Assembly (NCBI GenBank): GCA_035487355.1
Contig: DATHMF010000022.1
Coordinates: 62,001-126,000, forward strand
DNA from: Terriglobales bacterium
GTDB lineage: Bacteria > Acidobacteriota > Terriglobia > Terriglobales > Acidobacteriaceae
Length of the DNA stretch: 64,000 nucleotides
Direction of reading: 5' to 3'
The position numbers and the translations under genes were made by a program. The notes beneath the pieces are model-generated. The model made no database searches and was not told where the DNA came from. It saw only the letters and a program-made list of their open reading frames with translations. The first letter of the stretch is position 1. The number at the start of each line of letters is the position of its first letter. Positions 15,180 through 19,769 of this stretch are shown in pieces.

Positions 15180-15482
15180 ATGAAAAAAATTTACGTCGGA
15201 AATTTAACTTCGCTGACCAACGCCACTCAGGTGCAAACATTGTTTGAGGGATATGGAAAAGTGCTCAAAGCCGGACTTGTTTGTCATCGCGATACCGGAG
15301 AGTCGCTCGGGTTCGCCTATGTGCTCATGAGCGATGATGAAGAGGGAAATGAGGCCATTCAAAATCTAAATGGCACCACTCTGGATGGCCGCACGATGGA
15401 CGTGAAAGAGGCTCTTCCGCCTGGAGAACGCCCCGATCCCAAGAAGAAGCATTTTCATGGCATGAAATTGCGTCCGCGCTGA
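15180..15482 (+). CDS. RRM-type RNA-binding protein
   Basis: 100 aa. A single RNA-recognition motif: RNP2 is IYVGNL (4-9) and RNP1 is the 'GESLGFAYV' segment (about 40-48). Typical 'AIQNLNGTTLDGR' and 'DVKEALPP' strands follow, then a basic tail (PKKKHFHGMKLRPR). AAGGAG lies ten bases before the ATG. Bacterial RRM proteins of this size bind RNA and are often cold- or stress-linked. It lies about 450 bases from a cold-shock gene, which fits an RNA-metabolism neighbourhood. Confidence 0.93.
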   Translation: MKKIYVGNLTSLTNATQVQTLFEGYGKVLKAGLVCHRDTGESLGFAYVLMSDDEEGNEAIQNLNGTTLDGRTMDVKEALPPGERPDPKKKHFHGMKLRPR

Positions 15483-16179: not shown

Positions 16180-18015
16180 GTGCAGTCTGCGGAGAATCTG
16201 GGGATGAACTCCTTGCACAATGACAAATTCCGATCGCTCTTGGGACAAGGACAATGGTCAGATCTGGTCTCACTGGTAAAAGAGATGCCCGTGTCTCTCG
16301 CCGCTGACTTGATTGGCAGCTTATCCGATGAGCATCAGCAAACGCTCTTTCGCCTTTTGCCGGTACAACTTGCTGCTGCTGTGATTACAAAATTCCCTTA
16401 CTATCACCAATACATTCTGCTGCACACGCGCCCTCCCAAGGAAATGCGCGAGATTATTGATCACATGGCGCCAGATCAGCGCATGCAACTTTTTGATGAG
16501 CTTCCCGAAGAAGTTTGGCAGCGCCTGATGGATGAACTCGCCGGCCGCGAGTATGCCGCACCGCAGACAGACGACGCTGCGGAAGCCCGCATCGTCCCTC
16601 CTGAAGCGGAAGTCACCGCTCCCTTCCCAGGCCCGCCGCTTGTCCGGCGCGAGCGCGAGACCAGCGAGACGGTGATTGAGGCCCGCGGCGTCGAAAAATC
16701 ATTTCTCCAGCCTGATGGCACTCGCGTTCAAGTGATCGCGCCCCTGGATATTTCGATTTATTCGGGGACCGTGGTTGCATTGCTGGGGGCTTCCGGATGC
16801 GGTAAATCAACTCTTCTCAGAATCCTTTCGGGATTGGCTGCGCCTTCTTCGGGCTGTGTTCTGTGGCATGGTACACCCTGTGCAGAGGCAACTCCCAATG
16901 TCGCGATTGTTTTTCAGAGTTTTGCTTTGTTCCCCTGGCTTACTGTTCTGGAGAATGTTGAAGCTCCGTTGATGGCCCGTGGTGTAACTGCACCCGAGCG
17001 CCGTCGCCGGGCATTGCACGTGCTCGATACAGTTGGATTAAAGGGATTTCAAACCGCGTACCCCAAGGAGCTTTCCGGCGGAATGAAACAGCGCGTCGGC
17101 TTTGCGCGGGCCCTGGTGGTTCAACCCGAAGTGCTGTTCATGGACGAGCCTTTTTCTGCACTCGACGTGCTCACCGCTGAAAGTCTGCGCGGTGAACTGC
17201 TGGAGCTCTGGCTCAACCAGAAAATTGATACGAAAACAATTTTTATTGTCACTCACAATATTGAAGAGGCCGTACTGCTGGCCGACCGAGTGATCGTGCT
17301 GGGACGCAATCCTGCCCACATTCGGGCAGATTTCCGCATTCCGCTGGCGCAGCCGCGTGAGAGGAAGTCGCCGCAGTTCCTCCTGTACGTTGATTACATT
17401 TACAAGGTGATGACCAAGCCAGAGGTTGCGTTTGCTCCACCTCCCGAAGTCGGCCAGAAGCGGATCTACCAGCCGTTGCCTCATGCCCGCCCCGGAGGCA
17501 TTGCTGGATTGCTGGAGTTGCTTGTGGACCGCGGCGGCGCGGAAGACCTTTACCACCTTGCCGAGCAACTGCTGATGGATATTGAGGATCTGCTGCCCAT
17601 CATCGAAGCTGCCGCGCTGCTTGGCTTTGCCCGGCTGGAGCAAGGTGACGTGGAGATTACTCCTGAAGGCCGCAGCTTTGCTGAAGCCGATATTGCCACC
17701 CGTAAGACCTTATTTCGCCATGCATCTCTGAAAAATGTGCTTCTGTTCCAGCAAATCGAGAGTACGCTGCGCGCAAAAGCCGACCACACCATTCCTCTGG
17801 AACTTTTCCGCGACCTGCTTGACGAGCACTATCCTGAAAATGAAGTTGAGCGTCAACTTGAAACTGCGCTCCACTGGGGGCGCGATTGCGAACTCTTCAC
17901 CTATGATTCTGGCAACGAGAGGCTTCAGTTGATATTGCATCCGGAAGAGAAGACCGGCCAAGAGCGGGAAAGCGCCGCCGCGGAAAACAAGTCTTCGGAA
18001 GTCAAATCCTCATGA
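16180..18015 (+). CDS. ABC transporter ATPase with N-terminal MgtE_N domain
   Basis: 611 aa from GTG 16180; an ATG at 16204 is an equally possible start. Residues about 20-125 match the MgtE intracellular N-domain (LFRLLPVQLAAAVITKF, then 'MAPDQRMQLFDELPEEVWQRL'). An ABC ATPase of the nitrate/sulfonate/taurine (NrtC/SsuB) group follows: Walker A GASGCGKST at about 203, signature LSGGM at about 298, Walker B and 'VLFMDEPFSALD' from about 317. The C-terminal 140 residues fit the AAA-associated regulatory domain of this ATPase group. Its stop overlaps the permease start (ATGA). The substrate is unknown and no binding protein is adjacent. The MgtE_N fusion suggests cytoplasmic gating by an ion or nucleotide, as in MgtE, but this is inference. 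Confidence 0.9.
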   Translation: MQSAENLGMNSLHNDKFRSLLGQGQWSDLVSLVKEMPVSLAADLIGSLSDEHQQTLFRLLPVQLAAAVITKFPYYHQYILLHTRPPKEMREIIDHMAPDQRMQLFDELPEEVWQRLMDELAGREYAAPQTDDAAEARIVPPEAEVTAPFPGPPLVRRERETSETVIEARGVEKSFLQPDGTRVQVIAPLDISIYSGTVVALLGASGCGKSTLLRILSGLAAPSSGCVLWHGTPCAEATPNVAIVFQSFALFPWLTVLENVEAPLMARGVTAPERRRRALHVLDTVGLKGFQTAYPKELSGGMKQRVGFARALVVQPEVLFMDEPFSALDVLTAESLRGELLELWLNQKIDTKTIFIVTHNIEEAVLLADRVIVLGRNPAHIRADFRIPLAQPRERKSPQFLLYVDYIYKVMTKPEVAFAPPPEVGQKRIYQPLPHARPGGIAGLLELLVDRGGAEDLYHLAEQLLMDIEDLLPIIEAAALLGFARLEQGDVEITPEGRSFAEADIATRKTLFRHASLKNVLLFQQIESTLRAKADHTIPLELFRDLLDEHYPENEVERQLETALHWGRDCELFTYDSGNERLQLILHPEEKTGQERESAAAENKSSEVKSS

Positions 18016-19769
18016 CTCGGCAATCAACCTCAGCCGCCCTTCGCTCCCTCGTTCTTCCCTGGGGGGTAATCCCTCGTTCCAGCCGTTCTTTTCTGACTGA
18101 TCTCCCGATCTTTGGCCTTGGGCTCGCCCTCTTCTACAGCGTTATTGCCATCAGTCGTTATTGGAGCGGCCCTCTTACCGCTCAGGTTGAGATTGATCTT
18201 CATCCTCGTGCTCTTCCTGTTTATGTCTTTTATTCGGTGATGCGCATTTCGATTGCCTATTTTTTGAGTCTGGCATTCACCTTAATCTATGGCTACATCG
18301 CCGCGTATAACGCGCGGGCTGAGCGCTTCATGATTCCTCTGCTTGATGTGCTGCAATCCATTCCTGTGCTGAGCTTTCTGCCGGGCGTAATGCTGGCCAT
18401 GGTTGCGCTATTTCCCAGGAGACAACTGGGCCTGGAACTTGGCGCCATCCTGCTGATCTTCACCGGCCAGGTCTGGAACATGGCTTTCAGCTTCTACGCC
18501 TCGCTGAAGAGCATTCCGCAAGAAATGCGGGAAGCGGCACAGCTTTATCGCTTTAGCTGGTGGCAGTCATTCACGCAAATGGAGCTGCCCTACGCTGTGA
18601 TCGGATTGGTTTGGAATTCCATGATGTCTGTGGCCGGCGGCTGGTTTTTTCTGATGGCCTGCGAGATGTTTGTCCTGGGCAACCGTGACTTTCGCCTGCC
18701 CGGTCTGGGTGCATATCTTCAGACCGCGGCCAGCGCCGGCGATACGCGTGCAATTCTCTGGGGTGTGGGCGCGATGCTGGTGGTCATTATATTGACCGAT
18801 CAGCTCGTCTGGCGGCCGCTGATCGCCTGGGCCCAGAAGTTCAAGTTCGAGAATGTCGAAGCCACTGACGTCCCGCGCTCTCCCATTTTGGACCTGATTC
18901 GCCGCTCAAAGCTGATAGCCTTTCTCTCGCGCAAATCGGTAACACCATTGCGAGAGGCCCTTGTATTGCATTTTGCGCACAGAGATTTGCGTCCGGAATC
19001 GAGCGGCGGAAAAACCCAGACGCGGACGTGGCTTTTGTGGGCGTTGGGAGCCGCACTGCTGGTTGGAATCGCCTACGCAGTTTTCAATAGCGCTGTTCTG
19101 TTGGCGGGGCTGCATCGTGAAGAGTTGAAGAGCGTGGTTGTTGGAGCGGCCGCAACCTTTCTGAGAGTAAATCTCACGCTGGTACTCGGCGCCTTGTGGA
19201 CAATTCCCGTGGGGGTTGCCATTGGATCTCGTCCCAGGCTCGCGCGTGTGGCTCAGCCGATTGCACAAATTGCTGCATCCGTACCGGCGACTGCATTGTT
19301 CCCCATCGTTCTTCTCGCGCTGGTTCGCTTCGGGGGCGGGCTGGGCGCAGGTTCGATTGTGCTTTTGTTGTTGGGCACGCAGTGGTACATCCTGTTCAAT
19401 GTGATTGCCGGTGCCAGCGCCATTCCCACCGATTTGAAAGAAGTATGCAATGTCTTCTCTTTCAGCAAATTTGAGCGTTGGCGGAAGCTGATCCTGCCAG
19501 GCATTTTTCCCTTTTTGGTCACCGGCCTGGTGACTGCATCGGGCGGCGCCTGGAATGCGAGCATTGTGGCAGAATACTTTCACTTCAAAGGAGAAACATT
19601 CTCTACCACCGGTCTGGGTGCGGTGATCAGCCAGGCCACCGACAATGGCAATTTCAGATTGCTTCTTGCGGCTACGGTTTGCATGGCCGCGATTGTAGTT
19701 ACCATCAATCGCCTGGTTTGGCGGCGCATGTATCGTTTGGCGGCGACCAGATTTAAACTCGAAGCCTAG
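18012..19769 (+). CDS. Two-domain ABC transporter permease
   Basis: 585 aa, overlapping the ATPase gene by 4 bases. It carries two BPD-type permease domains in one chain. The first has the EAA-loop equivalent 'EMREAAQLYRFSWWQSFTQM', the second 'DLKEVCNVFSFSKFERW' then LILPGIFPF. About twelve membrane segments are visible. Importers of the nitrate/sulfonate group normally use two separate copies of a 250-270-aa permease, so this is a fused pair with a central soluble linker (about residues 275-340). It forms a complete membrane unit with the MgtE_N ATPase. Confidence 0.93.
   Translation: MTRQSTSAALRSLVLPWGVIPRSSRSFLTDLPIFGLGLALFYSVIAISRYWSGPLTAQVEIDLHPRALPVYVFYSVMRISIAYFLSLAFTLIYGYIAAYNARAERFMIPLLDVLQSIPVLSFLPGVMLAMVALFPRRQLGLELGAILLIFTGQVWNMAFSFYASLKSIPQEMREAAQLYRFSWWQSFTQMELPYAVIGLVWNSMMSVAGGWFFLMACEMFVLGNRDFRLPGLGAYLQTAASAGDTRAILWGVGAMLVVIILTDQLVWRPLIAWAQKFKFENVEATDVPRSPILDLIRRSKLIAFLSRKSVTPLREALVLHFAHRDLRPESSGGKTQTRTWLLWALGAALLVGIAYAVFNSAVLLAGLHREELKSVVVGAAATFLRVNLTLVLGALWTIPVGVAIGSRPRLARVAQPIAQIAASVPATALFPIVLLALVRFGGGLGAGSIVLLLLGTQWYILFNVIAGASAIPTDLKEVCNVFSFSKFERWRKLILPGIFPFLVTGLVTASGGAWNASIVAEYFHFKGETFSTTGLGAVISQATDNGNFRLLLAATVCMAAIVVTINRLVWRRMYRLAATRFKLEA

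Follow-up and report, generated by a model that had tools for sequence, protein, structure and literature searches.

The 64,000-nt stretch analyzed here (the window; from a soil bacterium of the Terriglobales, contig DATHMF010000022.1) encodes a two-gene ATP-binding cassette (ABC) transporter whose ATPase carries an MgtE_N domain fused to its N-terminus and an AAA_assoc_C domain towards its C-terminus, and whose permease is a tandem of two transmembrane domains. The two genes are paired, the genome lacks binding proteins of the NMT1 type, the fused ATPases trace, on the simplest reading of their tree, to a single origin, and the fused domain is under purifying selection. We consider it an even bet that the pair forms an orphan ABC transporter that works without a binding protein and serves, most likely, in cation homeostasis, with MgtE_N as a regulatory or docking part of its ATPase.

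Domains and pairing of the two genes

Pfam placed MgtE_N (PF03448) at residues 41–121 of the ATPase with a score of 51.5 bits, where the curated threshold is 25.9 (E = 1.6e-13), and an independent whole-genome search agreed, finding the domain at C22:78300-78542, the interval given for it in Table 1. The initial annotation, made from the letters alone, had proposed such a domain together with a duplicated-fusion permease, and both proposals stand, the permease having two BPD_transp_1 stretches in its 585 aa. The NrtC-like regulatory domain that it had placed at the C-terminus is ruled out, as Pfam gives AAA_assoc_C (PF09821; E = 1.2e-38) there instead. Neither a CBS pair nor an MgtE membrane domain was found by Pfam in the ATPase or the permease. 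Because the methionine at position 9 of the GTG reading was invariant among 13 aligned ATPases, ATG 16204 is probably the true start of the gene; the catalytic motifs were also invariant across 13 aligned sequences.

In a model of the ATPase obtained with AlphaFold2 from 13 sequences (mean predicted local distance difference test score, pLDDT, 68.7), the MgtE_N region was predicted to be all-helical, with nine helices over residues 2–120, and the mean pLDDT of 10-residue blocks was 82–91 across residues 11–100. Fold searches with this model gave only ATPase-domain folds, and no MgtE fold, among the matches listed; at the profile level, the fused N domain matched MgtE structures (8gpv, E = 6.3e-12). 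The ATP-binding domain was nearest to NrtCD/CmpCD both in sequence (8wm7_D, E = 1.1e-51) and in solved fold (8wm7_C, Z = 18.6, root-mean-square deviation 4.0, 227 aligned). The curated cut-off for ntrCD was missed (189.2 versus 291.8 bits), as were that for ntrB by the permease (93.8 versus 209.05 bits) and all other curated cut-offs among the matches listed.

The genes share an ATGA overlap, so translational coupling of ATPase and permease is likely, and the permease adjoined in the same order at 16 of the 18 fusion loci at which the ATPase was called (19 loci given). In an alignment of 27 permeases (the window's, 19 from plasmids and seven from fusion loci), the protein was strongly conserved, and two sets of residues, one in each half, were invariant in every row: Gln153, Trp155 and Asn156, and Gln457, Trp458, Tyr459 and Asn463. 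The motif strings TGQxWN and QWYxLFN were absent from all eight control permeases; some plasmid permeases depart from the TGQxWN string as such, though all of them keep its Q, W and N. The predicted permease model (mean pLDDT 63.9) was too weak to be used for a fold search; in it, the invariant Q, W, N and Y residues fall in helices, and we regard them as candidates for the substrate path.

Table 1. Coordinates in the window of the transporter genes, their domains and one nearby gene.
Feature	Position	Strand	Basis and remarks
ABC ATPase gene	16180..18015	+	Open reading frame (ORF) list; 611 aa when read from GTG, probably 603 aa with ATG 16204 as start
MgtE_N (residues 41–121)	16300..16542	+	Pfam and whole-genome search
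Linker (residues 123–165)	16546..16674	+	Predicted unstructured; pLDDT 24–41; poorly conserved
ATP-binding domain (residues 166–400)	16675..17379	+	ABC_tran at residues 188–325 by Pfam
AAA_assoc_C (residues 458–576)	17551..17907	+	Pfam; compact in predicted model
ATGA overlap of ATPase and permease genes (4 bases)	18012..18015	+	ORF list
Two-domain permease gene, 585 aa	18012..19769	+	ORF list, Pfam
First BPD_transp_1 transmembrane domain	18284..18793	+	C22:80285-80794
Second BPD_transp_1 transmembrane domain	19202..19711	+	C22:81203-81712
Small RRM RNA-binding protein	15180-15482	+	Pfam; 0.7 kb 5′ of the pair

Distribution of the base system and of the fusion

Without MgtE_N, the system has been described before. 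A 2012 survey of Candidatus Liberibacter asiaticus presents CLIBASIA_02415/02420, a PF09821 ATPase and a permease with two tandem transmembrane domains but no binding protein, as a "possible novel ABC system" resembling Nrt/Ssu/Tau, and infers a winged helix for the C-terminal PF09821 domain (PMC3688454). The window's pair has the PF09821 ATPase, the tandem two-domain permease and the lack of a binding protein in common with it, whereas MgtE_N, present in the window's ATPase, is not described for the Liberibacter system. On plasmids, 52 of 193 records matching the permease covered at least 80% of the query, and none of 1101 records matching the ATPase covered 80% of it. Among Acidobacteriota, PF09821 was found in 76 of 297 sampled genomes of the phylum and in 178 of the 300 genomes sampled from the window's family; the window's own genome has one AAA_assoc_C. 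The base system is already known, widespread on plasmids and uncharacterised, and no report of its substrate or mechanism was found; what is new is the MgtE_N fusion, of which we found no description in the literature, judging from search results. The arrangement had initially been called little-described, which fits the fusion but not the base system.

First noted in this one genome, the fusion recurs in Acidobacteriota. A profile of the N domain, searched at E 1e-8 against the 300 sampled family genomes, matched in 19, and 16 of the 300 had MgtE_N and AAA_assoc_C on one contig at matching positions; the match in G360 is cut by a contig end. Two further matches, in G257 and G307, were rejected because the proteins (461 and 460 aa) read as MgtE channels, for G257 by Pfam. 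A second AAA_assoc_C match was present in four of the 16 fusion genomes (G539, G547, G563 and G565), and in G565 it lies in a frame of 458 aa, short enough for a non-fused copy. Across the phylum, the profile at E 1e-6 matched in 71 of 396 genomes, two of the 396 being fusions (179 and 193 bits); the best non-fusion scored 76 bits, with only G257 and L196 identified by Pfam, few frames read, and the remainder judged on score and frame length. G098, G055 and G153 contain long reading frames that were set aside after inspection. Narrow peptide patterns from a two-row alignment, scanned against a collection of 84,980 species genomes, returned 16 loci, all titled Acidobacteriota-type, and a single-sequence scan of the same collection returned no match; because the patterns are narrow, diverged fusions in other phyla could be missed. 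Within the searches made, the fusion was found only in Acidobacteriota.

A tree was built from 78 ATPases, of which 21 were fused, 45 were non-fused proteins of Acidobacteriota and 12 came from plasmids. The 21 fusions formed one clade with support of 100/95, so that a single gain of MgtE_N, in one Acidobacteriota lineage, is the simplest reading. Over these 21 sequences, the mean conservation values of MgtE_N, the ATPase domain and AAA_assoc_C were 0.76, 0.84 and 0.80; the 0.59 obtained for the linker is inflated by shared gaps. The ratio of nonsynonymous to synonymous substitution rates (dN/dS), estimated for five pairs, was 0.11–0.23 for the N domain in all five, 0.04–0.13 for the ATPase domain and 0.08–0.64 for the linker; the fused N domain is maintained by purifying selection. 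Recurrence, the single clade and selection together rule out a chance MgtE_N match, and a misassembly is ruled out by the many separate genomes that carry the fusion. One fusion copy (L053:9001-12505, identical with L071) has interrupted ATPase and permease frames, and is either decayed or misassembled.

Binding protein and gene neighbourhoods

No binding protein lies adjacent to the pair in the stretch whose ORFs were listed and scanned, as the initial annotation had noted, and a genome-wide test covering two families, NMT1 and NMT1_2, gave no match to either in the window's genome (96.55% complete), while each was present in 12 of the 14 genomes used as controls. We read 20 plasmid loci of non-fused relatives, 19 of them annotated; a binding protein was listed at none of the 19, whose gene tables are incomplete, versus all eight control loci of related ATPases (drawn from 30 listed at intervals along the ranking of related ATPases), at which it lay within three genes.

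The genes that do lie near these relatives point to cation homeostasis, and not to nitrate or sulfonate. VIT, MgtC, CDF or Nramp was at most three genes away at 9 of the 19 non-fused plasmid loci, versus none of the eight controls. At seven of the 19, such a gene adjoins the two transporter genes and is read in the same direction: VIT (L117, L125), MgtC (L122, L131, L132), or CDF and then MgtC (L130, L134). Nramp is two or three genes upstream at L120 and L119, and the neighbours at L119 include a PRC-MgtE_N-CBS protein as well as Nramp genes. MgtC is directly downstream at one non-fused Acidobacteriota locus (L156), and KdpA was found near three fusion loci (L064, L065, L081) and another non-fused one (L148). 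The anion substrates suggested initially follow the name of the ATPase, and these neighbourhoods lead away from them.

Several observations weigh against a binding-protein-less transporter acting in cation homeostasis. Most of the evidence from neighbourhoods concerns distant relatives (41–52% identical), and the plasmid loci were hand-picked from the listed matches, some from the same genus (three Azospirillum, two Thermus). Among 103 neighbours of fusion loci, the 25 Pfam families listed of 102 include Kdp and sensor kinases and no VIT, MgtC, Nramp or CDF; these four are also missing from the 25 families listed of 131 at non-fused Acidobacteriota loci, where 107 neighbours were tallied. The window's pair itself is flanked by genes for a hybrid kinase, a sigma factor, the RRM protein and a GH31 hydrolase, and no adjoining metal gene was recognised. 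The ATPase domain is closest to those of nitrate and bicarbonate transporters, two of the 18 fusion ATPases (L073 and L074) have no adjacent permease, and the authors of the 2012 survey were doubtful that such systems transport at all (PMC3688454).

The Kdp potassium pump genes near fusion loci were at L064:12525-17733, L065:10452-12209 and L081:16350-19001, and DUF4118 sensor kinases were seen at some fusion loci. A stand-alone receiver-domain protein of 123–150 aa, mostly divergent, adjoins the ATPase at nine non-fused Acidobacteriota loci (L137, L139, L144, L146, L148, L150, L151, L161 and L164). These proteins were assigned by Pfam, which gave a receiver domain in 10 of the 107 neighbours of non-fused loci, and by BLAST; proteins of this stand-alone form were not seen beside fusions.

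Possible roles of the fused domain

On the reading that we favour, the two genes make up a complete ABC transporter of the AAA_assoc_C kind, most likely serving in cation homeostasis, probably with one two-domain permease and two copies of the ATPase, and without a dedicated binding protein. The helical MgtE_N domain, acquired N-terminally on a probably flexible linker, would most likely respond to a signal in the cytoplasm or to a partner protein and, together with the C-terminal domain, change how the ATPase cycles. Two cytoplasmic gates, as first suggested for this transporter, are possible because accessory domains flank the ATPase on both sides; gating of the MgtE type is the part of that suggestion that finds no support. 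A more specific version, in which the pair transports cations without a binding protein and ATP hydrolysis is controlled by MgtE_N and AAA_assoc_C acting together, both reading the state of cations in the cytoplasm, an MgtE-type sensor having moved onto an ABC motor, strikes us as possible but on the unlikely side.

The Mg2+ sites of MgtE bridge its N domain to the CBS domain and plug helix (PMC5882242), and the fused protein has neither of these. The ligand residues known from T. thermophilus MgtE are mostly altered as well: Glu59 is kept in none of the 21 fusions and Asp91 in 11, and the position of Asp95 holds no acid in any of them (14 Arg, 6 Gln, 1 Ser). By comparison, the 11 PRC-MgtE_N-CBS proteins keep Glu59 in 10, Asp91 in nine and Asp95 in all. 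In two MgtE channels from the window's family, positions 59/91/95 read A/D/R (L051) and D/D/E (L052), so that both lack Glu59 and Asp95, and the former has the same residues at the ligand places as several fusions. Since these channels vary there too, a change of ligands is not by itself disproof of sensing, and we used the loss of ligand residues as supporting evidence only. The most conserved stretches of the fusions, YYHxYVLLHSRP and DELPEEAWQRLMDE, lie apart from the ligand places.

An MgtE-like gate, in which the fused domain binds Mg2+ and turns the ATPase off at high cytoplasmic Mg2+, as initially supposed, would suit the profile match to MgtE structures, the MgtC and Kdp neighbours of relatives and the residues shared with the L051 channel; with the CBS domain and plug helix missing and the ligand residues as counted above, we hold it distinctly unlikely, although the two varying channels weaken the ligand argument. 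FliG/MotE-type helical domains tether proteins, and MgtE_N could be a docking module that tethers the ATPase to another protein and senses nothing. The position of the best-conserved stretches away from the ligand places and the loose linker, judged by its pLDDT, are consistent with docking, but the fusion loci have no conserved partner gene, and we think it rather unlikely.

The substrate and the very activity of the pair can also be read differently. An importer of an oxyanion (nitrate, bicarbonate, sulfonate or similar), with its binding protein encoded elsewhere and MgtE_N as an added regulator, would account for the nearness of the ATPase domain to NrtCD/CmpCD in sequence and fold and for the weak permease match to ntrB. 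It is an unlikely reading for a genome with no NMT1 or NMT1_2 protein, for relatives with no binding protein at loci where the controls consistently have one, and for proteins that miss the ntrCD, ntrB and other listed curated cut-offs. Very improbable, in our judgement, is a membrane-anchored signalling ATPase that transports nothing and whose C-terminal domain binds DNA or another protein: the winged-helix assignment and the doubts voiced in the 2012 survey speak for it (PMC3688454), but the catalytic motifs are invariant in 13 ATPases and the permease is strongly conserved.

The window's pair resembles several known systems in part. NrtBCD/CmpBCD have the closest ATPase domain, in sequence and fold, yet they carry a binding-protein-like domain on NrtC/CmpC and use a single-domain permease and a binding protein, whereas the window's pair has AAA_assoc_C and MgtE_N instead. 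With the MgtE channel, the window's ATPase shares the N domain, by profile match and as a predicted helical domain, and not the CBS domain, plug helix or channel. The PRC-MgtE_N-CBS proteins of Acidobacteriota (L001 and its kin) likewise have MgtE_N outside a channel; unlike the window's ATPase, they are separate proteins that are not fused to a transporter, have CBS and keep most ligand residues intact. OpuA CBS is a regulatory appendage of an ABC importer. The appendages of OpuA, MetN (C2) and ModC have another fold, sit at the other end of the protein from the N-terminal MgtE_N of the window's ATPase, and belong to systems that use binding proteins. In MetN C2 and ModC, the cytoplasmic appendage on the importer ATPase places transport under the control of a ligand (PMC10710835).

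The base transporter is widespread and has a distinctive, strongly conserved permease. Permeases of this class usually depend on a binding protein, and a system that imports without one would be an exception. The contrast between neighbourhoods gives a concrete lead, towards cation homeostasis. The natural occurrence of MgtE_N on an ABC ATPase suggests that such motors can take up a sensor domain of the channel type. Taken as a whole, the functional reading in the initial annotation is partly supported.

Beyond the fusion, MgtE_N also occurs in the stand-alone PRC-MgtE_N-CBS proteins, with Nramp nearby at 8 of the 10 Acidobacteriota loci read (L208-L211, L213-L216) and without it at L207, in the window's genome, and at L212. 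It also occurs in MgtE channels that are extended far at the N-terminus (L196:472-3330, L198 and L202, on the – strand; frames of more than 1150 aa). On inspection by eye, the extension resembles a membrane domain of the amino-acid-permease type, but in L196 Pfam names no domains other than MgtE_N, CBS and MgtE.

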